Virus record (IMG/VR): IMGVR_UViG_3300046011_001509
Coordinates: 1-58,499 of that record
DNA length: 58,499 nucleotides
Source of the DNA: a virus
Reading direction: 5' to 3' (one strand)
The translations under genes were made by a program, and so were the position numbers. The stretch's first letter is position 1; every line of letters starts with the position of its first letter. The notes under the pieces are model-generated. The model did not search any database. It had not been told where the DNA came from and saw only the letters and a program-made list of their open reading frames with translations. Positions 12,590 through 58,396 of the stretch are shown one piece after another.

Positions 12590-12850
12590 ATGCGGTTTGC
12601 CATAGTGATTACCCTTGCCCTGCTTGGCTGCTCAAAGGAGACGCCAAAATCTAATGCGCTCAACGTTGAGCGCATTGCGCCAGAGCCGCAGCGCACACTT
12701 CAAGTGGGAACCAACCAACTCATCTCGGTACAAATCCCCGGACAAGAGTGGCACTCCACCCAGAAGTGCTACATCTTCCGCGACTTGGAGTTCAAGACAT
12801 CCAGCATAAGCTGCCCAGCCGGGGCTACTGGGAAGATCGAACCGGACTAG
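12590..12850 (+). CDS. Small lipoprotein next to attP
   Basis: 86 residues from ATG 12590; the upstream in-frame extension is not signal-like. The N-terminus MRFAIVITLALLGCSKE is a short type II signal peptide with lipobox LLGC, so Cys14 should be lipidated after cleavage. The mature part contains two more cysteines near the C-terminus (WHSTQKCYIF, SSISCPAG) that could form a disulfide in the periplasm. It stands alone between attP and the convergent late block, overlapping the giant gene's end by 4 bases. Isolated genes here are often expressed from the prophage, so superinfection exclusion or another change of the lysogen's envelope is plausible. A weak TTGCCA/TATTCC promoter pair (12544-12572) precedes it. 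Confidence 0.6.
   Translation: MRFAIVITLALLGCSKETPKSNALNVERIAPEPQRTLQVGTNQLISVQIPGQEWHSTQKCYIFRDLEFKTSSISCPAGATGKIEPD
12653..12676. repeat. Perfect 24-bp palindrome
   Basis: The sequence from 12653 to 12676 equals its own reverse complement without a mismatch and is centred on AACGTT. It lies inside the lipoprotein gene, about 200 bases from attP and near where the rightward and leftward transcription units meet. There is no T-run for an intrinsic terminator. It could be a protein-binding site or a transcript-stabilising hairpin. Confidence 0.8.
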
Positions 12851-15800
12851 CTTTTGCGCTTCAGCTTCGACTCCTTCTTGTACCAATCGGTATTGAAGTC
12901 TTCAGCCATCTTCTCCCGCTTCTTCTGAACCATCCGGCGCTTGAGTTCCTTCTCCTTGTCGGTTGAGTTGCTCTCAGCGATCTTGACCTCTTCCTTCTTA
13001 AGGTCACCCATCATTTCGCTAATGTTCTCGGCGTAAGCCCCCATTCCTTGTAGGAACTTCTTCTCGTCTGAGTACTTGGGCTGGATGCCTATCTTGGCTT
13101 GCGCCTTCATGTCAGCGAACTCTTTCTTCGCTTCCTTGGAGCGGTCATAGAACAGGCTCATCCCAGACTTGGAGTCGTACTCGCCATAGAACGCCTTGTA
13201 GATTGGGATGTCTCTGGTGTTTATTGGCGCATCGATTGCTCCCAAGTACCCAAGGTTGATCACATCTCCGACAAACCTACCAAGCCCACCGCCAACAATC
13301 CCCTCAAGGTTTTTGATCGTGCCGGGTTCAATGTCAACCGCACCCTTTAGAGCCATGTTCCCACCAGACACGCTATTGAGCCACCTTGCTATGCGATGCT
13401 CCACTCGACCATGATTTGTGGCAGAGACAGTTTCAGAGTCAGGCTTCTGGTCGTATGGTGACTTCTCTGGCCCAAGCTTCCTTCCGAACCCGTCAACACC
13501 CTCTCGGATTTGGTACTCAGCATCCAGTATCGTCGGCCTCCATGCTAGTGCTGCCTGATGCTCATCCCGTGGATCGAACGACCCGCCAGCAGGGTTGTAT
13601 GACCCAGCCGTGGCACTCAGCATGTTGATTGCAACCTTAACAGCGCCAACGCCTCGCGCAGGGTCTTTGACGTTCCTTGCGAGGTCAGCCAACTGATACC
13701 CCAGCACAGGGAACACGTTTAGTCCATACGCCATTGGGAACTTCATGTACCTTCCATGTGTGCCAACCTTCTCTCCAATGTCTGCACCCGGTGTCAGCAT
13801 GATGATTAGGTTCCGCTCTTTCTCAAAGTCCGGTATCTTGTCCCAGTAAGCCTGACCGTCTTCGTCATCTCCACCCACTGAAGCAGCCCACAGAGCCAGT
13901 CCCATACCGACTGACGCCATGCCAGCCATTGCGTAGCGGACCTTCGGGTTCTTTGCCATCTGGTAGATTCGCACGGAACCCTGCACCGATGCGTTGTAGA
14001 ACAGGAAGGCTGTGTTGATAAGCTGCCCCTGTTCGCCAAACCTATTGAAGTTCACCGTCAGATTCTTTGCAATCGAAGCGGCTTGAGCCGGAGTCTTGCC
14101 CATCTCTCGGGCAGTCGCATAAGCCGCCAGACGCGCAGTATTCTCCGACATTGACCCAACCAACTCCAGCCCGTGAAGAAGCTTCCCAGTAGCCCACCAA
14201 GCCGTGGTCTTCCTAGCCCTCTCCCCTGCGGCTGTAGCATAGTGATCTAGTTTGTTAATGACCCCGCTCTTGTTTGACGCATCAAATGATATGGGTGCTG
14301 CTCCAGCTTGCAACATGGCGTCACGAAGCTCCTGTCGTATAGACGCATGGTCGCGCATGAACACGCCACCCGTGGTCCCACCAGCAAAGCGCATCTCACG
14401 CATCCACTTGTCCATTGGGTGAGCTTGTGGGTCAGAGGTGTTCCTCTCAACTCGCCAAGACGCAACACCAGCAGCACCATAGTTCGCTGTGTATCTACGC
14501 AAGCCCTCTGCTCCAAGCTCGTCAAAGATTGCAGCCGCGCCCATCTGAGCGTCCCGTGCCGCATTGACCAATCCGAACACAGGGTTGTAGCGGGTAATCG
14601 TATTGCGAAGCAGTGATGTGTACACGCCAAGCGTCTTGGTCATCATCATCTCTGCATCACTTGTCTCTGCCTTGAACGTGTTCTGCATGGCGCGAAGCAG
14701 CAGCGGGTCATTGATCTTGATGTAGACCTGTTCACCACCAACCTTCACAGAGATGGTTTCGTCACCCTTGTCGAGTGTGTCAACGTACTCAATCAACCCG
14801 TTCACCTTGCGGGTGGCGCGGGTCATTGGCTGCACTTCCCATAGATTTGCATCTGGGTTCGATGTCACCAAGTCGAGGAACGTCTTGCCTACAGCGTTGC
14901 GCTCTGCGCGAATTGTGATGCGCTCGTAGTCACGGATGATGTTCTCAATGATGTCGCCAGCCTTGGAGTCACGGCCCATCGCTGCGATGGTTTCTTTGCC
15001 CTTGGTGTTGAATCCCCTGCCGAGTCCGGGGCGCACACTACCGCTGTCAGGATCGACATCTTCAAAGCCGCGCAACGGAACGTAGTTCTCGTACTGGCTC
15101 TCCAACCCATCGTACTGGTCTTGCGTAATCAAGCCCTCATCCAGCATCAGCCTGCGGGTTGTGGATGTGATTGCCAGAAGGTCCGCATGCAACTCTTCAA
15201 ACTTTGCTGCGTCTTGCGATAGTTCCACCAGTTGGATGATGTTGTCAGCTTCGGCGTCACTCATTCCAGAGCCAGTCTTCACATGCTGGTTCGTCTTCTG
15301 GATGTGAGCGTTGCGCTCTTTGGCATGTTTTGCATAGGCATAGGCAGCAAGCTCATTCAAGTCAACCTTGTACTCCACAGCCTTATTGATCAGCGGGTGG
15401 ACTACGTTGTCAGCAAAGTCTCGCAGAACCTCATGGACCCGCCCGTGCATGCGCTCTTCAGCGCGATACACATCCTGCTCTTCGCCAACCACTCCACCAC
15501 CCTCTAGCAGCAAGTCCTGCACCATCTTGACACGGTTGTACTTGTCCTGCATCACGCGCTGAATCGCTTGGCCCTTTGACTCTTCTGGAAGTCCTTGTGC
15601 TGCTGGGTATCCTTTGCGTTTAAACATTGGCACATCGACCACGCCAGACTTCTCGAACGCTGCTACCCTAGACTGCTTCAAGATATGTGCAATGTCAGCC
15701 ATATCGAGTTTCGCAAGCTGCATAAATCCGTTGTCACGCAGCCAAGACTTGATTGCACCGACAACCTCTAGCGCAAATTGCCTCAATGATCCCGTTTCAT

Positions 15801-18800
15801 TTTCCGCTATGTGCGAAAGAACTTCCTCCATAAGCCAAGCTCGGCGAATCTCACTTTGCCCTCCTGCCGCACGGTTCATGTGTTGGCTTGTAGTGATGTT
15901 GTTGGCAAAGTTCACATAGCCGTTGGTATCCAGCTTGTATTTCTGAACCAAATAAGCTATCTTCGACTCGCCAAGAGACAGCGATAGTTTGTTTAGGCGC
16001 TTGTATATCTCTGGCCCGAACAAGGCTCTAAGGCCAATGTGCCCATAAAGCTCATGGATTACAGTGGATTCAAAGTCTTCAGCAGAATGGATATTATCTT
16101 GAACGATATAAACATCACCCCTACCGAAAGTAATGCCCATGTCTCCGGGGCTAGAGACTTGCTGCACATTGACAGGCAAGTCCCCGTGAGTCTTGACAAG
16201 GTGGATGGTGTTGCCGGAACCAAGCAGACTCTGGTTGAGCTTCCCGATGAAGGCGGCTTCCTGCCCTGCCGTTATTTTGGTAGAGACTCCGCCAAGACTG
16301 GTGATTGAGCGCTTGTAGCCCGTCAGCCCTTCTTCGGAGTCCCGTACACCCGGTTCATTACTTCCTTGTCCTGCTGCGCCGTCGTTGGCTTCTGAAGTTG
16401 CAGCTTCATTCGCTCCATCGCTGCCTTCGCTTTCGGACTCAGAGACTCCTGCGCTGTTGCGCCATCCGTCGAAGATTTGTGGGTCAACATAATGTTCTTT
16501 CGTGGTCGCTAGGGTATCCCCTATTTTAGTCGCTGCTGCCTGTAAAGCCAAGTCAACATAGGCTTTGAACTCCGCTTCGTTGGTAGGCTGTGGCATGCCA
16601 TCCACAACCAGTTGCGCAGACTTCGTGGCCTGCCAAGTCCTGAAGTCATGCACCTTATATTTCTTGCCGCCATCCAGTGAATCCTTGTACTTGCGTACTG
16701 CGCGGTCTGCGGTTTTGAACAATGATTCTCCACCCATGCGCTTGGATATATCCTTTGCGATGTCGGCATTCTTAATGCTGTGACGTTGCTGTACGCCAGA
16801 CTTTCCAATGAAGTCAAACTGCGCCACATCTCCAGTCACCTTCACATGCTCTGGCCTTAGAGTGGACGCGCCGTAGGTAGGACCAGACTTGCTCATGCCG
16901 CCGCCAATGCGGAAGCCTGTGTGTGCGATCAGACGTAGGACCACGGCCTCTTCCTTGCCTGCTGTAGCGTCACGCTCAATCTGCGTCAACAGCGAGTCGC
17001 GGTCATTGTGGAAGTCGCGCATGCGCTTGAACTTCTCCACCAGCGCAGCGGCTTTCTGCTCCTTGGTGTAGCCCTTCTCTGCAACACCTTCGACATCCTC
17101 AACTGCAAGAACGTCAATGCGCTTGCGTGCGTAGGCGATTGGCTTGGCAAACTCATTGACTTCATTGGCATCAACCTTGCCCATGATGATTCCGTTCGTC
17201 ATCACGGCCCGGGCCAAAGTTGATTCACCTATCCCTGTGCCACGATTCTTTGGATCATTCAACCAACGCTGAATTCCCTTGGTTACATCCTTGCCAGACG
17301 AATCGGTGAACACTCCAGTCTCAGGGTCCAATGAAAGACGGGTCAAGCCAATCATTGTCGGGCTGTCGTTCTCGTCAATCCACTGGCTAGTGGATGGCTT
17401 GTAGGTAGCCTTGTGACTTCCATTCTCAGTAGTCGTTGTGTCGGGCAACACCTCCATCACATTACGCATATTGGCAATTGCCAAGCGCGATATGTTCATC
17501 AGATGCTCTTCTGGTGTTGATGCGTTTTCATCAAACCCATAGATGCGGTTCTGCTGTCCGGGGAGCAGGGTCGTTGAGTCACCCGTCTTGATGGCGAACG
17601 AGAATGATTGCTCAGTCCTGCGGAACGTGTTAACTGCTGAGATATTGGTATCGCAGTAAAACTTTTCCTTCTGGTTCTTTGCCCACTGACCAATCACTGC
17701 ATACACGGCGGTGCCAACGCGACTTCCTTTAAGGCCCATTGTGTTCACAGCAAATCCGTCGTCATCTGACAACTCGGAGAAGTGCGTTACCGCCAAGTAA
17801 TTGTGATTGGTTGATTTATCAATGAAGCGTATCGTTGCGTCACGAATGTTGGTGCTATCCACTGACACGGAGTACCCGTTGAATGCATCCAAATCTTTGC
17901 CTATTTGCGTGAAGTCAGTGGACGTGCTGGTCTTGTACTTGAAAGCATTCTTTGCCTTTGCCAGTTCAAGCCACGCCTTCGCTATCTTCAGGTTCGTGCC
18001 TTTCTTGTAGGCTGATGCAATGTCGTACCCCGAGTCGTGAATAAACCCGCGAACCAAGTGCGCCTTAAACAAGTTGATAGCAACGTTCTTGGTGTAGTTT
18101 GAACCATTGTCAAACCATCCAGCCGCTGCGCTTACCTTGTACTGGTCATCGCCAACCTTGGTTATTGTCGAGTGAGGGTAGGCTGCATTCGGATTCATTC
18201 CGACTGAACTGCCAACAGAGTCACCGTTAAAGTCCGGGTTTCCAAACGTGTGTGCGAATGCGCGTTCTGGGAATATGCCGTGCTGCGCCATGCTCTCTTT
18301 GGTAACAGCTTTTGGGCCTTGCGGGTTGTCGATCCTTCTGGCCCTATTCACCATCCGTTGACGGAACGCAGCCTCATCAGCAAGAGCGGAAAGTGCGTCA
18401 TCATCTGGAGAAGTGAAGTCCAAGTCTCCTATGTCTTCCTTGTCTAGCTCTTCAACCTCTATGGCGTCTAGGTTGAAATTTCCAAGGTCGCCAGTCGTGT
18501 CTTCATCGTAAACAAAGTCGTCCACCGATTTGGTGCGGCGTTTGTAGGATGGCATTTCAATTGAGTGCTTGCCAAGCAGCACGGCGAAGTCTTGATTCGC
18601 TGCCTTGTCCATGAAGTAGCCATCAAAGCCAGCATTCTTGACAAAATTCTCAAACTTGGTTTGACGCTCTTGCTCTGTTGCGCCAGTGGACATGCGGCCA
18701 AAACCCTTGTGATCTTTGGACACATCGTACAAATTGTTAAGCTTGATGATGTGCTTCACACCACCCACACCCGCTTCAGGCGTTACCCCATTGCCCCTGT

Positions 18801-21800
18801 CCACATAGAAGTAAAGGCGGTCTTTGATGTAGCCGCTTGATTGAGCGCGGTCACGCTCTGCGCCATTGAGACCGGAGCCGTGGAACTGGCTGCTGAGTAT
18901 CTTCCGGCGCTGCTGGCTGAAGTGAACTCCAACCTTGGCTACCGATCCTTCTCTGGCAACTCCGTAGTCGCGTTCGGCTTCTGCTGAAGACTGCGTAGCG
19001 TCTGCGAGAGCGCGTTCCTGAACTCTTGATCTTGTGCGTCCAGCGCTGCTATTGTCGATCCAGTCTTGTCGCTTACCAATAGATTCTCTTGCGAGTTTTC
19101 TGAGTTGAACGAGGTGATCCCTTTTCTCACTCCGAAGAATGGTCCGTCCTTCACTGGATCGTGTTTGCTCCGAATTACCTTTGCCATACTTGCCTTCTTT
19201 CAAATAGTCGCCACGGTTATCTGACCAAATCAACTCACTCTCATAGCGCTCAATCTCTTTGATATCCAATGCTGCGCCATCCCATTCAAGAGACTCAACT
19301 GCACTCACAATTCCAGCTTCAAACTCCTCATCACTCAGCCTTGACTCACCATTGAATGCTGTGAAGTTTCCAAACACCAACTCACTCGGCTTTGTTTGTG
19401 TGTTTGCGTCAGCGCGTGGGAACTTTTCGTGAATCAGATCGCGCAGTTCTTGTAGCTTACTGCTAGGGAACCCTTCAGGCAAGATCACCTTGATAAATGA
19501 GTTCTGATTACCACCGCTGGTGTTGCCCTCATCAAACACAACCATTGATTGCTGGTCGAGGATGTAGCCAAGCTCACGGGCTACATCGTTCAACTGGTCT
19601 TGAGTTGCGCTCTCTGGCGCGTCAATGATGAAGTTCGGATTCGTCTTTCCTTGGTACTGACCAGTGGACATATCAATGTCCCAGCCACGAAGACCGTGCA
19701 TATCCATCAAACTTCTGAATAGCTTTTGCGCTACGTTGCGATTGGCCGCAGCCTTCTCGCTCCACTCTTGCGCATCCCATTCCTGCGCCGTGCTTTCTCG
19801 CCTGCGCATCAACTTTTCCTTGTCACTCATTAAAGAGTAGTCTCTGGAAATCTTCTTGCCACCAAGCAATATTTCTTCGCCGGACTGGTCTTGCTCGTAC
19901 CCCCTGTCGACCGGGTGCGGAGCAACCTCACCGATTACACCCTTGCGGCTGTAGTCGGGATCATCCACCACTGAATCGCTGATAGTCCCGTCACGGCGAA
20001 GCTCAACAATCGCATCGCGCAGAACCATCTTGGCTTTGGTCAGGTCCGCAACATACTGGTCTACCGCTTTGGACTTGGCATTACCTTTGCCACCACGCAG
20101 TTCAGCGATCAGATCGTTAATGGTTTGCAGCCACTTGCTTGCCCATTGCTGGAAGTTCTTGGGGTCAGCTTTCGCAAGAGACTTGATGAACTCACGGTCT
20201 GTGGCGCGGTTGCCAACAAAGTCAGCCATCATCTCCTTGCGCGTCTCAGCCTTGTCAAGATAGCCCTTCGCGGCTTCCATCCTCAACGCACTGAGCTTGG
20301 CTTTCTGCGACACCGACCAATACTTCTGTGGCATCGGGTTACCCTTGCCGTCCTTGATCGAATCCGTGTAAGCGACTATCTCTGGAGAGGCGTTAATCCT
20401 GTCTGACGCAAGGAAGTTGGCGATGTAATCCAGCTTGCCTTTCTCCCCCATTGAGTCGTAGATTGCATCGACCTTGGAGATGTACTTCTGCGCGGGTGTG
20501 TTTGTCTTGCCGTCGCGTGTGTCAGCTTCGGCTTGCGCCTGCATGACGTGGTGGGTTTCATGCCACCCAGTTGTCAGTGCATTGGAGGTGAGTCCCTTGG
20601 TGTTGATGTAGACCTTGCCATCAAGCTGGATGCCATTGACTGAGTCAGGGCTTGGGTCACTGAATGCAACCACTTCAGCGGTAACGCCAAACAGCGCCTT
20701 CGCCTGCTGCATAGCAGCTTGAATCTGTGAGTCAGCCTTTGCATCTGGCGCTCCCAGAGTTATCTTCGGGTTGGTCGCCGGGTCTTTGGCGTTCCAGTGG
20801 TCTAGGACTTTTTGGGCTGACTCTCTGCTGGCAACGGCTGCTTGTTGAACAGACTGTTGTACGCTTGATCCCGCTGTGTTACCCACAACTGGAACTCCTG
20901 CGGCGACAGTGTTCGTCGCATTTCCTGTTCCTTGGCTTGCTCCAGTAGCGCTGTTCCGCACTGCCTCTGATTCATTTGCAACCTCCGTTGATTGTGGAAC
21001 CCGAGATAGTAAATCCGAATCACTGGTCCGCGCAATCGGGTTCGTTACTGTCGTTGCATTTGCTCCACTGGCTGGTTGACGTGGTTCACCCACAGCAGCA
21101 GCCGCAAGTCCTCCCGTGTCGGTTCCCACTCCATTTCCAGTCGCAGTTGCATCGACCACGCCTGTCGTGGCGTCAGCGCTCCCGCTTGGTAGGCTGACTG
21201 GATCGGTTGGTAGAACTCCAGTTGTGTTGCCATTAAGTACGCCTTCGATGTTTGCAGTTGCGGCTTGGATTGCCGGGTCAGCTTGCGCTTCACCGACTTG
21301 AGCTACGCCCCCCACAGACGCTTCAAACGCAGCGATGGCTGTGCTGGTATCAGGCGCGGAACTTATCGCAGCCGTGGCCCTATCCTGCCTCTGCTCTGGG
21401 CTATTGGCAAGGTTTGGATTCAGCGTTGTAGGCACATAGCGCTCTGGCTCTTTGCGTGACTCGCTGAGTGCAGCAACTCCTGCAAACGGACCGCTCGTCA
21501 ACGTTGCAGTAGCCATTGCCTCTGCAACACCCTCATCCCACTTCCTGCTCGGGTCAATGGTTTGTATTTGCTTGTTAGCGATGACGTTTGACGAACCTTC
21601 GTCAATGTTCTCGCCAGCCAATTCTTTGGCAACAATCTTGGCGAAACCTTGCTTCTCGGCAGTTTTACCAGCAGCCTTCGCTAGACCTGATGCAACCATT
21701 GCCGCTTCAGCGCCGCCATAACCAAACGCCATACCAATGGGGGCAGCTATCAGAGCAGCCATCCTTGCCTTGGTAGTGGCGATCTCTTTCCTTGCCTCAA

Positions 21801-22827
21801 GAGGGTCCATCCCCTTGTTGTCAACCAAGTCACGATAGTCTGGGTTCGCATCCATTAACGACTGTTTCGCCGCCATGACACCGTCATAGGTTGAACCAGC
21901 AGCGTCACCCGCTGACATACCGCCAGCCGCTGACATACCGCCAATCGTCCCGCCAAGCTTTGATGCCGTGCTGGCAATAGCTCCGCCAGACACAGCCTCT
22001 CCAAGCGCCAAGGTAGGGGATGCCCTGCCAGCAAGACCAACCGCTCCAGCCGCAGTTCCAGCCACAAGCTTAGATGCGCCAAGAATGCCGATGAAGTTTG
22101 GTATTTGCTTGATGCCCTCTTGTATTCCAAGAGAGGGGTTCGCCACAAGTGATGTCAATGTTTCAACATACTTGCCAAAGAAACCATCCTCTTCATCGAT
22201 ACGCTTACGCATGAGTGCGCGTTGCGCCTTTACTGTCTCAGACTCCTCGCCAGCAAAGTCTGCCTGTACTGCGCGGAAAGTATCTGCCAGCATGCTGCCG
22301 GGAGCGATGATGTTGGTTGGCAACTGTGCAAGCGATAAGGTTCCTTGCTTTAGCGCAGCAACTGAATCTCCAGCCCACTCACCAATACTGCGGAACTCAT
22401 CTGCCTTGGCTTTCAGAAGTGTGCCGTCATCTCCTGAGTCGTTGGCTTTTCTGGACGCATCAACCCCTCCAGCCAAAACCTTTGCGCCCCTAGCCGTAGA
22501 CCTGTCCGCAATGTCAGTCGCATTGGCTTTGGTGAACATGACAGACTGCGGACTCTTGCTTCGATTACGCGCTTCGCGGTTAGCAGCGAGGTCAACGTCA
22601 TCAGTCATTCCAGCAGGAGCCTCCATCGTCACATCCTGAAGAACGCTCTCCTTCTTTGGCGTACTTGCGCCAGTGGCAAAGTTACGCACGGAGTTCATAG
22701 CGCTGCCGACCATATCCATCATGGATGGCTCTGGAATCGCCTCAACTGCTTTAGCCTCTGGTGCGTCTGGCAAGTCGTCAAACAAGCCACTATGCGTCAC
22801 TGGCAAGTCATCAAATAGTCCAGCCAT
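12847..22827 (-). CDS. Giant polyvalent virion protein with topoisomerase IB core
   Basis: 3326 residues. N-terminus: two GLFDDLP motifs, then Ala/Gly-rich hydrophobic segments (about 245-310 and 350-385). Near 756 HETHHVM is a zinc-protease motif. Near 1314 FHGSGLN followed by DRLYFYVD recalls an ADP-ribosyltransferase-like fold (tentative). About 1920-2115 is a type IB topoisomerase core: TGFRIGG (about 1965), YGASTLRPEHV, GKSG, HDFRTWQAT (about 2059), IGDT, and the tyrosine in KEHYVDP (about 2112). A second zinc motif, HELYGHIG, is at about 2258 with EEVLSHIAE after it. About 2730-3010 resembles LPD38-type C-terminal domains, with hydrophobic helices. Giant proteins of this kind in podoviruses are packaged and ejected with the DNA. 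Last gene of the late block, starting at the stop of the coiled-coil gene. Single-frame throughout. Confidence 0.85.
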   Translation of the reverse strand: MAGLFDDLPVTHSGLFDDLPDAPEAKAVEAIPEPSMMDMVGSAMNSVRNFATGASTPKKESVLQDVTMEAPAGMTDDVDLAANREARNRSKSPQSVMFTKANATDIADRSTARGAKVLAGGVDASRKANDSGDDGTLLKAKADEFRSIGEWAGDSVAALKQGTLSLAQLPTNIIAPGSMLADTFRAVQADFAGEESETVKAQRALMRKRIDEEDGFFGKYVETLTSLVANPSLGIQEGIKQIPNFIGILGASKLVAGTAAGAVGLAGRASPTLALGEAVSGGAIASTASKLGGTIGGMSAAGGMSAGDAAGSTYDGVMAAKQSLMDANPDYRDLVDNKGMDPLEARKEIATTKARMAALIAAPIGMAFGYGGAEAAMVASGLAKAAGKTAEKQGFAKIVAKELAGENIDEGSSNVIANKQIQTIDPSRKWDEGVAEAMATATLTSGPFAGVAALSESRKEPERYVPTTLNPNLANSPEQRQDRATAAISSAPDTSTAIAAFEASVGGVAQVGEAQADPAIQAATANIEGVLNGNTTGVLPTDPVSLPSGSADATTGVVDATATGNGVGTDTGGLAAAAVGEPRQPASGANATTVTNPIARTSDSDLLSRVPQSTEVANESEAVRNSATGASQGTGNATNTVAAGVPVVGNTAGSSVQQSVQQAAVASRESAQKVLDHWNAKDPATNPKITLGAPDAKADSQIQAAMQQAKALFGVTAEVVAFSDPSPDSVNGIQLDGKVYINTKGLTSNALTTGWHETHHVMQAQAEADTRDGKTNTPAQKYISKVDAIYDSMGEKGKLDYIANFLASDRINASPEIVAYTDSIKDGKGNPMPQKYWSVSQKAKLSALRMEAAKGYLDKAETRKEMMADFVGNRATDREFIKSLAKADPKNFQQWASKWLQTINDLIAELRGGKGNAKSKAVDQYVADLTKAKMVLRDAIVELRRDGTISDSVVDDPDYSRKGVIGEVAPHPVDRGYEQDQSGEEILLGGKKISRDYSLMSDKEKLMRRRESTAQEWDAQEWSEKAAANRNVAQKLFRSLMDMHGLRGWDIDMSTGQYQGKTNPNFIIDAPESATQDQLNDVARELGYILDQQSMVVFDEGNTSGGNQNSFIKVILPEGFPSSKLQELRDLIHEKFPRADANTQTKPSELVFGNFTAFNGESRLSDEEFEAGIVSAVESLEWDGAALDIKEIERYESELIWSDNRGDYLKEGKYGKGNSEQTRSSEGRTILRSEKRDHLVQLRKLARESIGKRQDWIDNSSAGRTRSRVQERALADATQSSAEAERDYGVAREGSVAKVGVHFSQQRRKILSSQFHGSGLNGAERDRAQSSGYIKDRLYFYVDRGNGVTPEAGVGGVKHIIKLNNLYDVSKDHKGFGRMSTGATEQERQTKFENFVKNAGFDGYFMDKAANQDFAVLLGKHSIEMPSYKRRTKSVDDFVYDEDTTGDLGNFNLDAIEVEELDKEDIGDLDFTSPDDDALSALADEAAFRQRMVNRARRIDNPQGPKAVTKESMAQHGIFPERAFAHTFGNPDFNGDSVGSSVGMNPNAAYPHSTITKVGDDQYKVSAAAGWFDNGSNYTKNVAINLFKAHLVRGFIHDSGYDIASAYKKGTNLKIAKAWLELAKAKNAFKYKTSTSTDFTQIGKDLDAFNGYSVSVDSTNIRDATIRFIDKSTNHNYLAVTHFSELSDDDGFAVNTMGLKGSRVGTAVYAVIGQWAKNQKEKFYCDTNISAVNTFRRTEQSFSFAIKTGDSTTLLPGQQNRIYGFDENASTPEEHLMNISRLAIANMRNVMEVLPDTTTTENGSHKATYKPSTSQWIDENDSPTMIGLTRLSLDPETGVFTDSSGKDVTKGIQRWLNDPKNRGTGIGESTLARAVMTNGIIMGKVDANEVNEFAKPIAYARKRIDVLAVEDVEGVAEKGYTKEQKAAALVEKFKRMRDFHNDRDSLLTQIERDATAGKEEAVVLRLIAHTGFRIGGGMSKSGPTYGASTLRPEHVKVTGDVAQFDFIGKSGVQQRHSIKNADIAKDISKRMGGESLFKTADRAVRKYKDSLDGGKKYKVHDFRTWQATKSAQLVVDGMPQPTNEAEFKAYVDLALQAAATKIGDTLATTKEHYVDPQIFDGWRNSAGVSESESEGSDGANEAATSEANDGAAGQGSNEPGVRDSEEGLTGYKRSITSLGGVSTKITAGQEAAFIGKLNQSLLGSGNTIHLVKTHGDLPVNVQQVSSPGDMGITFGRGDVYIVQDNIHSAEDFESTVIHELYGHIGLRALFGPEIYKRLNKLSLSLGESKIAYLVQKYKLDTNGYVNFANNITTSQHMNRAAGGQSEIRRAWLMEEVLSHIAENETGSLRQFALEVVGAIKSWLRDNGFMQLAKLDMADIAHILKQSRVAAFEKSGVVDVPMFKRKGYPAAQGLPEESKGQAIQRVMQDKYNRVKMVQDLLLEGGGVVGEEQDVYRAEERMHGRVHEVLRDFADNVVHPLINKAVEYKVDLNELAAYAYAKHAKERNAHIQKTNQHVKTGSGMSDAEADNIIQLVELSQDAAKFEELHADLLAITSTTRRLMLDEGLITQDQYDGLESQYENYVPLRGFEDVDPDSGSVRPGLGRGFNTKGKETIAAMGRDSKAGDIIENIIRDYERITIRAERNAVGKTFLDLVTSNPDANLWEVQPMTRATRKVNGLIEYVDTLDKGDETISVKVGGEQVYIKINDPLLLRAMQNTFKAETSDAEMMMTKTLGVYTSLLRNTITRYNPVFGLVNAARDAQMGAAAIFDELGAEGLRRYTANYGAAGVASWRVERNTSDPQAHPMDKWMREMRFAGGTTGGVFMRDHASIRQELRDAMLQAGAAPISFDASNKSGVINKLDHYATAAGERARKTTAWWATGKLLHGLELVGSMSENTARLAAYATAREMGKTPAQAASIAKNLTVNFNRFGEQGQLINTAFLFYNASVQGSVRIYQMAKNPKVRYAMAGMASVGMGLALWAASVGGDDEDGQAYWDKIPDFEKERNLIIMLTPGADIGEKVGTHGRYMKFPMAYGLNVFPVLGYQLADLARNVKDPARGVGAVKVAINMLSATAGSYNPAGGSFDPRDEHQAALAWRPTILDAEYQIREGVDGFGRKLGPEKSPYDQKPDSETVSATNHGRVEHRIARWLNSVSGGNMALKGAVDIEPGTIKNLEGIVGGGLGRFVGDVINLGYLGAIDAPINTRDIPIYKAFYGEYDSKSGMSLFYDRSKEAKKEFADMKAQAKIGIQPKYSDEKKFLQGMGAYAENISEMMGDLKKEEVKIAESNSTDKEKELKRRMVQKKREKMAEDFNTDWYKKESKLKRKS

Positions 22828-50331: not shown

Positions 50332-50559
50332 TCAGTGATCCACCACAAGCATCTGCGACTCAAGGGATGGAAAGGTTCCGAGGTTCTTTTGCAGGCCAGT
50401 CAGACCAGCATCTTGGCGTTGCATCAACTCGTCCATGCGCTTCAACAGCAGATAACCGACTTGGTGCGCGTTGGAACGCTGGTCAAAGTCCGTATCCATT
50501 ACGACTTGGGACTCTACTGCGCCATCCACATCGTCCAGAGTGATTGTGATCTTTGGCAT
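50332..50559 (-). CDS. Small hypothetical protein (75 aa)
   Basis: 75 residues. N-terminal KITITLDDVDGAVESQVVMD, then a helix (VGYLLLKRMDELMQRQDAGL). Separated by 1 base from the zinc-finger gene. No function recognised. Confidence 0.55.
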   Translation of the reverse strand: MPKITITLDDVDGAVESQVVMDTDFDQRSNAHQVGYLLLKRMDELMQRQDAGLTGLQKNLGTFPSLESQMLVVDH

Positions 50560-50868
50560 TTACGCTCTCCGACCTTGTGACATTTGTTCGGCTGGTGAGC
50601 CTCTTACGCTCTGGAATCCATTGGAAAAGGAGTCAACAGCTTCTTGCTCACCATCCATCATTGGAGCCTGCTCTTCTGCGGGTCCACCAGAAAGCATCTG
50701 CTTGGCAGCGTTCAGCGCTTCATCAATGCTGGCAAAGATTGAGCCTTCAGCTTTGTCTTCAGCCATGTCAGCTTGACCCATCTCGCCACCCATAGGCTCG
50801 GCTTCACCTTCAGGGGCCACCTCAAAGGTGCCGTCTTCTAGCGCGGTGATGCAGATGGTTTGAGACAT
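50560..50868 (-). CDS. Acidic hypothetical protein, first gene of the late block
   Basis: 102 residues from ATG 50868, beginning SQTICITALEDGTFEVAPEG, with Glu/Met-rich regions (AEPMGGEMGQADMAEDKAEG) and a polar Ser/Gln C-terminus. First gene after the late leader and its terminator. May be a head-associated or regulatory protein. Confidence 0.55.
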   Translation of the reverse strand: MSQTICITALEDGTFEVAPEGEAEPMGGEMGQADMAEDKAEGSIFASIDEALNAAKQMLSGGPAEEQAPMMDGEQEAVDSFSNGFQSVRGSPAEQMSQGRRA

Positions 50869-50884
50869 GGTGGCTTTCAAGAAT

Positions 50885-50907
50885 AAAAAAGCCAGAGCTA
50901 GTCTGGC
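50885..50907 (-). terminator. Intrinsic terminator in the late leader
   Basis: On the minus strand GCCAGA and TCTGGC (50891-50896 and 50902-50907) form a stem followed by six Ts (50885-50890). It stands about 20 bases before the first late start. A second inverted repeat (50911-50916 with 50926-50931) lies just upstream. A terminator in this place implies antitermination or attenuation of late genes. Confidence 0.75.
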
Positions 50908-50908
50908 A

Positions 50909-51204
50909 AGGGTCAGACAGGGGGACTGACCACGGGGAGGTAATGGGTGCGGGGTGCGGGTCTTTGTGTACAGGTACGGATAAAGGATGATTCCCGACCC
51001 CTACATAGGTTGGAACAGAAGGCTTGCATAAAGCAGCATTCAGTTAAACCGTATCAACAACAAGAGATATCAAGTTACACGGCGCTAACCCGTGTCACCT
51101 TCAGTTCCAAAAAAGCCGACTGAGCCAGATGGCTTGTTTGGAGACACCTATCCAAAAACACGGTTGGGCATCTGTTGCTGTTACTGGAACACCCAGTATT
51201 TCTT
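50909..51204 (-). other. Late leader region without a gene
   Basis: About 300 bases between the leader terminator and the predicted late promoter. Apart from a short inverted repeat (50911-50931) I see no gene or obvious site. It is Gly-coding-like by chance only in short frames. A pac or antitermination site may be here. Confidence 0.4.
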
Positions 51205-51215
51205 GCCTTGCACAC

Positions 51216-51243
51216 ATTTTACCTATTTATTGCACATTTGCAA
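51216..51243 (-). promoter_or_regulatory. Leftward late promoter
   Basis: On the minus strand TTGCAA (51238-51243), a 16-base spacer and TAAAAT (51216-51221). The start point should be near 51209, giving a roughly 340-base leader before the first late gene. It stands back to back with the rightward promoter at 51252-51280. The spacer ends in AGG before TAAAAT, resembling the phage's other promoters. Confidence 0.6.
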
Positions 51244-51251
51244 CATCCCTC

Positions 51252-51280
51252 TTGACATATTGTTGAGTCTTTGGTAAATT
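51252..51280 (+). promoter_or_regulatory. Rightward promoter of the small RNA
   Basis: TTGACA (51252-51257), a 17-base spacer ending CTTTGG, and TAAATT (51275-51280). The -35 is perfect. It should start transcription near 51287, giving the small RNA that ends at the terminator 51396. Confidence 0.78.
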
Positions 51281-51286
51281 CTCTTC

Positions 51287-51397
51287 ATCGACCTTGGCAG
51301 GAAGATGAATCCAGACCCCTTTGGTCTTAGCTTCCTAGCCCCTCACCGGGCGTCACCACCTGCCAAGTGGGGAGCTAAGAACCAAAGGGGTTTTTTG
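51287..51397 (+). ncRNA. Candidate structured small RNA, about 110 nt
   Basis: From the promoter above to a strong terminator. A 17-bp stem (51316-51332 with 51373-51390, one bulged A) is followed by six Ts (51391-51396). In its loop, 51359-51367 is complementary over 9 bp to 51293-51301 at the RNA's 5' end, giving a possible H-type pseudoknot; 51338-51352 can also form a small GCCC/GGGC hairpin. An ATG at 51305 with AGGA upstream opens a 71-codon frame through the terminator, so a leader with attenuation is an alternative. Confidence 0.6.
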
Positions 51398-51725
51398 CTT
51401 TCTGGAGCCAGAACCGAAGTTCGTCTGGCACGAAGTGGGACTCAGAACCCAGCCAGAACCCAGTTGATTGACTTGAATGTGGGCGGGCTTAACAGCGTCA
51501 ACAGCGCATCAAGTGAGTAGCGGTACTGGTGGGAAAAGGTCTGCAACACCGCGCAGATGGGTGGCGAAGCTAGTGCCCATGACCTGAACGACTGGCGGGT
51601 GTCGAGTGTCCGTACTGGATTTTGACTGAAGGCTTTTCTCTTTATTGAGGAAAGGCTAGGTGCGCTCGGAACCGTTTGGATTAGAGGTTTCTTAGGTAAG
51701 TAGTTACTAACAAGGAGTAAGTTGA
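51398..51725 (+). other. Gene-free stretch before the replication genes, possible origin
   Basis: About 330 bases with no clear gene. CAGAACC occurs at 51409, 51443 and 51454; the last two are 11 bp apart, one helical turn, as in iterons. The region lies between the small RNA terminator and the replication initiator gene, where lambda-like phages could hold an origin or promoter. Neither is proved. Confidence 0.35.
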
Positions 51726-52121
51726 ATGAACGATCTTCCAAGCTATATCGACCCCGAACTGTGGGCTGGGTTCCTTGAATCACGCAAGGCAATGAAAGTC
51801 CCGTTTACAGACTTTGCCAAAAAACTGACCCTGAAGAAGCTGATGGGCATGTATGAAAACGGCTGGTGCCCGAACTCTGCGCTGGAGAAAAGCATTACCC
51901 ACGGTTATAGGGGCGTTTTTGAGACTGACCGCCGTGATGCTGGGCAAAAGATGATTGGTCAAAGTCAGCGCACCTACCTTGAGAGCTTCAAGGAGCGCGA
52001 CACCCGGATAGCCCAGCAGCGCTGGGAAGAGATGACTGGCCTAAAGCACCCGGGCAACAGCCATCCTGACTTTATTGACGTAATCGGTTCCAACCAACTG
52101 TTTCTGGAGGTGCAGCAATGA
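51726..52121 (+). CDS. Replication initiator-like protein (lambda O-type C-terminal part)
   Basis: 131 residues. PELWAGFLESRKAMKVPFTD and LKKLMGMYENG, then SALEKSITHGYRGVFE, match the C-terminal segment common to phage replication initiators and DnaT-like proteins. The usual N-terminal winged-helix domain is absent or very short. It overlaps a P-type helicase-loader gene by 4 bases. An AAGGAG box precedes the start. It would recruit the loader or helicase to the origin. Confidence 0.7.
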   Translation: MNDLPSYIDPELWAGFLESRKAMKVPFTDFAKKLTLKKLMGMYENGWCPNSALEKSITHGYRGVFETDRRDAGQKMIGQSQRTYLESFKERDTRIAQQRWEEMTGLKHPGNSHPDFIDVIGSNQLFLEVQQ

Positions 52122-52534
52122 TCCGCGCTATTGACCGCTTGTTCCACCGATTGGGGGCTACCTACGGAGCAGAATGGGACCGTTCACTGGGCGCAACTCC
52201 AATTGGAGACGCCAAGACTGTATGGGCGCATGAACTGTCTTGCTATACAAGCAACCTGCAATCCATCGCATGGGCACTGGAGAACCTGCCAGAGCGCTGC
52301 CCGAACGTCATCCAGTTCAAGAACCTCTGCCGCCAAGCCCCTGCGGCAGCTACCGAGATGCTGCCAAGCCCGAAGGCTGACCCAGCCATTGTCAAGATGA
52401 TTACCGAGAAGCTGGCGTCTGCACCAGTGCATCAGATTGGTAGACACGACTGGGCTAAGTACATCCTGCAAAACCCAAAGGGACGCACACCAACTGTGAT
52501 CCATATGGCTAAGAACGCACTGGAGTATGCATGA
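52118..52534 (+). CDS. Replication protein P-like helicase loader
   Basis: 138 residues. The start IRAIDRLFHRLGATYGAEWD and the region TVWAHELSCYTSNLQSIAWA, LENLPERCPNVIQFKNLCRQ are typical of lambda P-family loaders, which hand the host DnaB helicase to the initiator at the origin. Coupled to the initiator and to the next small gene by ATGA overlaps. No phage helicase is seen, consistent with use of the host one. Confidence 0.78.
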   Translation: MIRAIDRLFHRLGATYGAEWDRSLGATPIGDAKTVWAHELSCYTSNLQSIAWALENLPERCPNVIQFKNLCRQAPAAATEMLPSPKADPAIVKMITEKLASAPVHQIGRHDWAKYILQNPKGRTPTVIHMAKNALEYA

Positions 52535-55667: not shown

Positions 55668-55763
55668 ATGAACCGACACCGACTGCTGAATTTCACCCTT
55701 GGGGCTGTGTACATCGCAGCCCTTTTTGTTTTGTACCTTGACGTTTTTATTTTTAGGAGTTAA
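55668..55763 (+). CDS. Tiny membrane peptide overlapping a terminator (31 aa)
   Basis: ATG 55668 to TAA 55761-55763, 31 residues. A membrane span (LGAVYIAALFVLYLDVFIF) after a short polar start (NRHRLLN). The terminator hairpin 55702-55727 lies inside it, so the peptide may be a by-product. The stop is 2 bases before the next gene and the AGGAG box for that gene lies inside this frame. Confidence 0.35.
   Translation: MNRHRLLNFTLGAVYIAALFVLYLDVFIFRS
55702..55727 (+). terminator. Intrinsic terminator
   Basis: GGGCTG (55702-55707) pairs with CAGCCC (55717-55722), followed by five Ts. It lies between the 150-residue gene and the DUF932 gene and would cut transcription between them unless read through. 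Confidence 0.7.
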
Positions 55764-57517: not shown

Positions 57518-58396
57518 ATGCCGATCAAAGTGTTTTATGACCCCCGTCAGTCCTGCGAATCGGCAAACAGCTACAGCCCATCAGCCGCCAAGCCTGCGAA
57601 GGTTGTGGCTGATTGGTTGAGCGATGAGCGCATTGCTCCACACATCCAAATTGAGACGTTCAACAAGGCCACGGATGATGTCCTGTGTGAAGCGCATGAC
57701 CCGGCGTACATCGCAGGCATCTTGGACGGTTCAATCGACAACGGCTTTGGAAACAATAGCCCAGAGATCGCAGAGTCCCTGCGCTACACCGTAGGCTCTA
57801 TGCTGGCTGCTGCGAAGTACGTCTTGAACAAAGACCTCTTCAATGAAGAGCGCGTTGCTGTGTCTCCGACATCTGGTTTCCATCATGCGGGTCACTCGTT
57901 TGGTGGTGGCTATTGCACGTTGAATGGCTTGGTCATCACGGCGAAACGGCTAAAGACGTTGGGGCTTGTGAACCGTGTGTTAATCCTAGACCTTGACCAA
58001 CACTACGGCAACGGTACACAAGACATCATCGACACGCTGGGGCTTGATTGGATCACCCACATCACGGCAGGCAAGTCGTATGACACGGCAAGAGATGCGC
58101 TATCACATTGCTGGCTTGCGAAGGAGTATGCACCTACCGGACGTAATCCGCATGACCTTTTACTGTATCAGGCTGGTGCTGACATTCATGTGGACGACCC
58201 GCTTGGTGGGCGTATGACGACTCAGCAAATGCAAGAGCGTGACAAAGCCGTGTTCCTTTGTGCATCAGGATATGGGTTGCCATGCGTGTGGAATCTTGCT
58301 GGCGGCTACAAGCGTGATGCACAAGGGACGATTGAGCCAGTGCTTGCACTGCACCGCCAGACCATGCTGGAGTGCATCAAGCAGTATCCGGGGTAA
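57518..58396 (+). CDS. Histone-deacetylase-family (HDAC-like) amidohydrolase
   Basis: 292 residues, HDAC/acetoin-utilisation/acetylpolyamine-amidohydrolase fold. Catalytic residues are all visible: the His pair H122-H123 in SGFHHAGHSFGGGYCTLNG, zinc ligands D160 and H162 in LDLDQHYGNGTQ, third zinc ligand D222 in QAGADIHVDDPLGG, and the catalytic Tyr Y264 in NLAGGYKRD. The family removes acetyl groups from lysine side chains or small acetylated amines. The AAGGAG box precedes the start. It is the last gene of the rightward operon, and its last 25 bases are repeated at the left end of the window. Substrate unknown; the phage also has a GNAT acetyltransferase. Confidence 0.9.
   Translation: MPIKVFYDPRQSCESANSYSPSAAKPAKVVADWLSDERIAPHIQIETFNKATDDVLCEAHDPAYIAGILDGSIDNGFGNNSPEIAESLRYTVGSMLAAAKYVLNKDLFNEERVAVSPTSGFHHAGHSFGGGYCTLNGLVITAKRLKTLGLVNRVLILDLDQHYGNGTQDIIDTLGLDWITHITAGKSYDTARDALSHCWLAKEYAPTGRNPHDLLLYQAGADIHVDDPLGGRMTTQQMQERDKAVFLCASGYGLPCVWNLAGGYKRDAQGTIEPVLALHRQTMLECIKQYPG

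Follow-up and report, generated by a model that had tools for sequence, protein, structure and literature searches.

A conserved pseudoknotted terminator upstream of RF02932 and other phage RNAs

In the late leader of phage lambda (pR'–tR', the 6S RNA), an intrinsic terminator lies within 100–200 nt of the promoter, a short RNA is made and the operon is held until antitermination. We know of no pseudoknot described for this leader or for the StxS RNA of Stx phages. StxS is presented, in the sections of the source used here, as a 74-nt small RNA acting in trans (PMC12197685), and RydC as a small RNA with a pseudoknot and a U-rich 3' tail, the pseudoknot being needed for stability (sections of PMC4337610). 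Among phage leaders, put of HK022 is a structured RNA located 3' of an early promoter (sections of PMC9378689).

The DNA analysed here (the window) is a 58,499-nt viral stretch, IMG/VR record IMGVR_UViG_3300046011_001509, with an element of interest at positions 51287–51397. Like pR'–tR' and StxS, the element has an intrinsic terminator shortly behind a promoter-like site; unlike them, it stands at the head of early/middle or structural operons, with RF02932 or a short module, M, behind it. A general family scan found no Q-like or N-like antitermination family among the window proteins scanned. The 5' seed of RydC is exposed, whereas the 5' segment of the element is itself a pseudoknot strand, and the stem, at 20–25 bp, is also unlike RydC. 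The likeness to put is that of a structured leader RNA behind an early promoter, but put consists of two stem-loops in ∼70 nt and the sections of PMC9378689 used here mention no terminator of its own, whereas the element has one. RF02932 belongs to the same leader, but the pseudoknotted terminator lies outside its Rfam model.

Structure and setting of the window element

A sigma-70-like promoter, TTGACA-17-TAAATT, lies at 51252–51280 on the + strand, confirming the good promoter with a perfect −35 hexamer of the original prediction, which had been made from the sequence alone. In a consensus scan of 50500–52500 it was the sole + strand site with at least 9 of 12 matches; on both strands together there were three such sites, against 1.3 expected by chance. 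The promoter scans used the sigma-70 consensus and could miss operon promoters of another type. Judged by the position of the −10 box, transcription would start near 51287. A 5' hairpin, P1 (51284–51309, +), pairs TTCATC at 51284–51289 with GATGAA at 51304–51309 and holds pseudoknot strand a, CTTGGCAGG (51293–51301, +), in its loop; if the start is near 51287, only ∼3 pairs of P1 are available in the window.

The strong terminator that had been predicted to close ∼110 nt is likewise present on the + strand, as a stem, P2, with its 5' arm at 51313–51337 and its 3' arm at 51368–51390, followed by a T6 tract at 51391–51396. It was missed by a short-loop terminator scan because its loop is 30 nt long. 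The loop contains a GCCC/GGGC hairpin, P3 (51338–51351, +), and pseudoknot strand a', CCTGCCAAG (51359–51367, +), which abuts the 3' arm of P2. The two strands are perfect 9-bp complements, as originally stated, with a duplex energy of −15.2 kcal/mol, and none of 300 shuffled 5' segments equalled the match. Folding 51287–51397 gives a minimum free energy of −48.9 kcal/mol (z −4.34), which none of 200 shuffles reached, and z is −5.51 for a fold begun at 51284 (51284–51397). Since a' abuts the 3' arm of P2 without overlapping it, the terminator stem and the pseudoknot helix can coexist, and the a:a' helix is a pseudoknot compatible with the terminator. We propose that the first ∼15 nt of the transcript pair with the loop of the terminator in a loop–loop contact, kissing or H-type. 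The original prediction had also raised an alternative fold that competes with the terminator; this was rejected, as the pairing leaves the terminator stem intact and a' is outside the stem. Searched against Rfam 15, 51287–51397 matched no family at its gathering score (best sub-threshold match 18.9 bits, against a cut-off of 80).

Downstream, a rightward operon starts at 51726 on the + strand. Its first gene (51726–52121, +) has a partial match to an O-like replication initiation family (phrog_678, E 3e-10), and it also holds a DUF932 gene, a YuA Gp49-like gene and a histone-deacetylase-like gene, the product of which (57518–58396, +) matches PF00850 at E 3.5e-32. The sole strong short-loop + strand terminator of the operon (51.7–58.4 kb) is at 55722, between two ORFs. 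Elsewhere in the window, the + strand carries a RecT-like gene, a RecE-like exonuclease and an integrase at 4–12 kb, a 3326-codon ORF (12847–22827, −) closes the leftward region, and a large terminase-like gene occupies 48.1–49.4 kb, also leftward. The element had been described as back to back with a late promoter. Below 49.4 kb the terminase-like gene is indeed leftward, and a − strand site with 9 of 12 matches exists at 51243–51216, but such a site is within chance expectation. The suggested role on late genes was not upheld: the element faces the operon from 51726 and heads a longer leader that contains RF02932.

Relatives and compensatory changes

A pattern for the RF02932 core was found in 81 stretches of viral contigs, many of which, by eye and by detector, have an analogous long-stem terminator just upstream, the loop of which is complementary to a more 5' segment. 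The distance from the start of the T tract to the RF02932 core motif is mostly 86–106 nt, with 169 in the window and 224 in L081. A pattern made from one terminator stem gave 19 stretches, the core of M 40 viral-contig stretches, and a search for relatives of the first gene, aimed at the kin of the window, two loci, which were set aside. Applied to genome contigs, the RF02932 pattern gave 15 stretches, at least five of them chance-like by eye (L084, L086, L087, L093 and L094); a bin contig, L096, carries the element. Leader parts compared with 50,697 phage records by blastn matched three: MW202426.1 (L099) and MW202484.1 (L151), which carry the element, and Acidovorax phage AP1, where an RF02932-like RNA follows a primase gene without the terminator.

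Altogether 148 anchor clusters were examined, and a stem above threshold was detected in 95, giving 79 distinct element sequences; these sit just upstream of RF02932, M or other unnamed RNAs in viral contigs. The stem was present at 40 of 90 anchors with the RF02932 motif only, 28 of 31 with M only and all eight with both, as well as at 19 of 19 stem-pattern anchors, which had been selected for it. The 50 stemless RF02932-only anchors include chance motif hits and sites directly after primase genes. M anchors without a detected stem were L130, L132 and L134, in the last of which the detector scored another helix although a stem of this kind, with an 8-bp loop pairing, exists. A background survey of 150 sequences (1.32 Mb, both strands), under criteria stricter than those of the anchor survey, covered 6572 T tracts; long stems were found at 62 near anchors and at 40 elsewhere, most of these 40 being gapped. 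On the − strand of L032 near 1329, away from RF02932 and M motifs, there is a second clean terminator with a long stem, L122-like.

The specificity of the loop pairing was assessed in 53 elements that remained after clustering on common 6-mers. The a:a' scores of matched strands sum to 1024.6, compared with a mean of 664.8 (sd 21.2, maximum 760) over 20000 partner reassignments. At the sequence level, this shows selection on the a:a' pairing. A second lineage of ten distinct sequences, upstream of ParB-like/helicase or capsid-like genes, has loop pairings that differ among its members; it scores low in the permutation because its a' does not abut the stem, and with the whole loop allowed its best pairings are of 8 to 17 pairs (in L047 a longer GU-containing pairing was picked).

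In an alignment of 34 elements, an unsupervised scan of columns returned the terminator stem and the pseudoknot as the top two helices. In the pseudoknot helix, pairing reaches 97.5%, five of the seven pairs show both-side changes and one-sided changes are absent. In the terminator stem, 12 of 17 pairs show both-side changes; the covariation that the original prediction had proposed to seek in relatives is thus found in both stems, and its structured RNA with a pseudoknot is strongly supported. P1, counted as 4 bp, is paired at 93.3%. Sliding the partners lowers the covariation score from 0.456 to 0.115 or less; having been drawn from this same alignment, the structure is favoured over the slid versions. 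In L121, the nearest relative of the window, an A-U pair of the pseudoknot has become G-C by a compensated change, and the inner hairpin carries the only other difference in the terminator–pseudoknot part. P1 is not kept in the same form, since its 3' strand and the linker differ there.

A covariance model of the 34 elements, R1, with the pseudoknot left out, matches L007, L096 and L151, none of which was in its training set. It does not match the window at E 0.05, nor anything in 50900–51700 at E 10. The window element has the features by which the element is defined: the promoter, the stem of ∼20 or more pairs ending in a T tract, and a loop strand that can pair with a segment lying 5' of the stem. 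Its membership therefore rests on this architecture, on M and RF02932 behind it, and on L121, rather than on the model, and it is a divergent member of the group. A chromosomal home for the element was considered and dropped: R1 matched two of 399 genomes of the order of a Betaproteobacteria bin, one being that bin itself, and in the other (L154) the detector found no long stem. We conclude that the pseudoknotted terminator is real and conserved, and that it has no Rfam name. A literature search, the scope of which did not extend to the probable defining paper of RF02932, found no description of it.

RNAs and genes behind the terminator

In the window, the terminator is followed on the + strand by M (51404–51454), a recurring module of 50 nt in which a GCCAGA/TCTGGC hairpin around ACCGAAGTTCG precedes AAGTGGGACTCAGAACCCAGCC; its hairpin has both-side changes at all six pairs in 25 copies. 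RF02932, the Betaproteobacteria-1 RNA, is at 51471–51600 (+; 87.6 bits, threshold of the covariance model 49.4), starting ∼75 nt 3' of the pseudoknotted terminator, and is the sole Rfam family in the whole window. It looks like an orphan RNA, as the same literature search found no paper naming it within its scope. An extra pairing beyond a nested model is present in RF02932: AGGTC at 51537–51541 with GACCT at 51581–51585 in the window, joining the second loop to the stretch before CGAA. At least four contiguous pairs form in all 40 aligned copies, and the matched sum is 528.4 against a permuted 364.6 (sd 14.0).

The RNA 3' of the element is of several kinds. It may be RF02932 or a variant of it, M followed by RF02932, or M followed by one of two unnamed conserved stretches (L113-like and L118-like); L110 and L152 have another kind in common, and L105 and L151 have yet others. 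The element is also present in L105, L110, L113 and L118, where the Rfam scan gave no RF02932 match, and in L152, which was outside that scan. Over the 24 loci scanned with Rfam, RF02932 was the sole family in the leaders, the remaining matches being tRNAs and one sub-threshold match in L118. The stretches after the T tract in L113, L118 and L110 are three conserved leader kinds without an Rfam match, and long stretches are identical between L110 and L152, with paired-looking changes. The folding energies of 14 downstream RNA stretches were unexceptional (z −1.5 to 2.0). In L063 (6516–7229, −), seven tRNA genes come immediately 3' of RF02932.

The genes downstream vary among relatives, and include an HNH endonuclease, a DNA polymerase, a glycosyltransferase and a methyltransferase, with capsid-like, YqaJ/RecT-like, ParB-like and helicase genes further identified by eye from translations. 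Several M loci have divergent recombination genes upstream (RecE-like, Erf), and other loci have helicase and primase-like genes upstream on the same strand. The recurrence of the promoter–terminator–leader order in all of these settings favours a general gate over service to one gene. A type III toxin–antitoxin system, with its order of promoter, pseudoknot RNA, terminator and gene, was considered for that order and dropped, since none of the genes found downstream was constant. In L138 (4442–5017, −), an HNH endonuclease comes right after an unnamed leader stretch, with a transposase-like gene further along.

A sigma-70-like site with at least 9 of 12 matches precedes the stem in 41 of 76 distinct elements (54%), compared with 6.5% of shuffled copies; an element that served to insulate against upstream transcription would have no need of its own promoter ahead of the terminator. 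A short-loop scan of the 640 nt after RF02932 found an intrinsic terminator at only six of 96 places, these being all places with enough sequence, chance motif hits included. This rarity makes RF02932 look like part of an operon leader or of intergenic mRNA and, with no second promoter-like site found, the operon seems to need read-through. L130 and L132, which are identical over the stretch examined, retain the promoter and the GTTGTCG start but not the terminator element, and M comes directly behind; transcription of M from that promoter would predict such an arrangement. Among elements without M (31), base pairing of the 5' end with the bases immediately past the T tract exceeds that of permuted partners (391.2 against 344.6, sd 12.8, p 0.00025, in a post hoc test made after seeing examples), and no such signal was obtained for the 20 elements of the M group (p 0.23). 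This pairing, which only a read-through RNA could use, is no more than suggestive.

Proposed gating of the leader and other explanations

Our preferred reading, to which we give a probability of ∼0.55, is that a pseudoknot-stabilised, promoter-proximal terminator gates a phage operon leader, with a compact short RNA as the default product. The element would be the first domain of the leader, an intrinsic terminator locked by the a:a' pseudoknot. By default, RNA polymerase would stop at ∼51396 and release a compact ∼110-nt RNA with its 5' end tied up; under some condition it would read through, make RF02932 and transcribe the operon. The pseudoknot would form once a' emerges, ahead of closure of the lower stem, and might tighten the stop, time it, or be what a regulator undoes. 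What was directly observed, and what this reading rests on, is a promoter-like site, a set of helices that covary in relatives, a constant position ahead of RF02932, M or other RNAs, and a scarcity of terminators after RF02932.

The main rival is a role in trans for the ∼110-nt RNA, which is compatible with the gate and does not exclude it. A stand-alone phage small RNA would act on host or phage targets, with the pseudoknot protecting it as in RydC and leakage serving the operon. We regard this as possible, if somewhat doubtful. The element has its own promoter-like site and terminator and a very stable fold, and in the sections of PMC4337610 used here the stability of RydC in vivo depends on an intact pseudoknot; against this, no single-stranded stretch of seed length is conserved among the 34 elements, the conserved letters being mostly those of helices and promoter, and the tight linkage to RF02932 or M is left unexplained. 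A coding function is barely credible. A 71-codon ORF does begin at 51305, and its translation and conservation as protein had been named in the original prediction as the case against an RNA, but it has no PHROG match and both its start codon and its frame are lost in L121, the closest relative, which retains the terminator, inner hairpin and pseudoknot.

An RNA acting in cis on polymerase, as put does, is unlikely here. The nascent pseudoknot, or M or RF02932, would make polymerase ignore later terminators, and a + strand terminator at 55722 does lie inside the operon of the window; it is the one internal terminator seen, and it would be odd for an antiterminator to precede, or lie within, a conserved terminator with a T tract. 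Put lies 3' of early promoters and, in the sections of PMC9378689 used here, needs no dedicated trans-acting protein; the RNAs described here likewise head operons, and the downstream slot is filled by several unlike RNAs. As for the pairing itself, two-loop covariation cannot separate intramolecular from intermolecular pairing, and in some elements a is joined to the stem by a short linker. The phi29 pRNA forms dimers or rings by loop pairing. We consider a comparable assembly very improbable for the element, as proximity favours intramolecular pairing and, by a hand estimate, the linker is long enough if the lowest stem pairs open.

Building on the gate, we offer tentatively, and with considerable doubt, that the element is an RNA-built phage switch, in which a regulator, possibly RNA alone, would open the pseudoknot-locked terminator, and the exchangeable RNAs behind it (RF02932, M and at least three unnamed kinds) would be leader devices, perhaps antiterminators, under the same gate in many phages. 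The gate itself would place RF02932, apparently an orphan RNA, within a transcript and give it a testable role. In the relatives, nature supplies compensatory mutants of a terminator pseudoknot by the dozen, with which the effect of loop–loop pairing on intrinsic termination can be tested directly.
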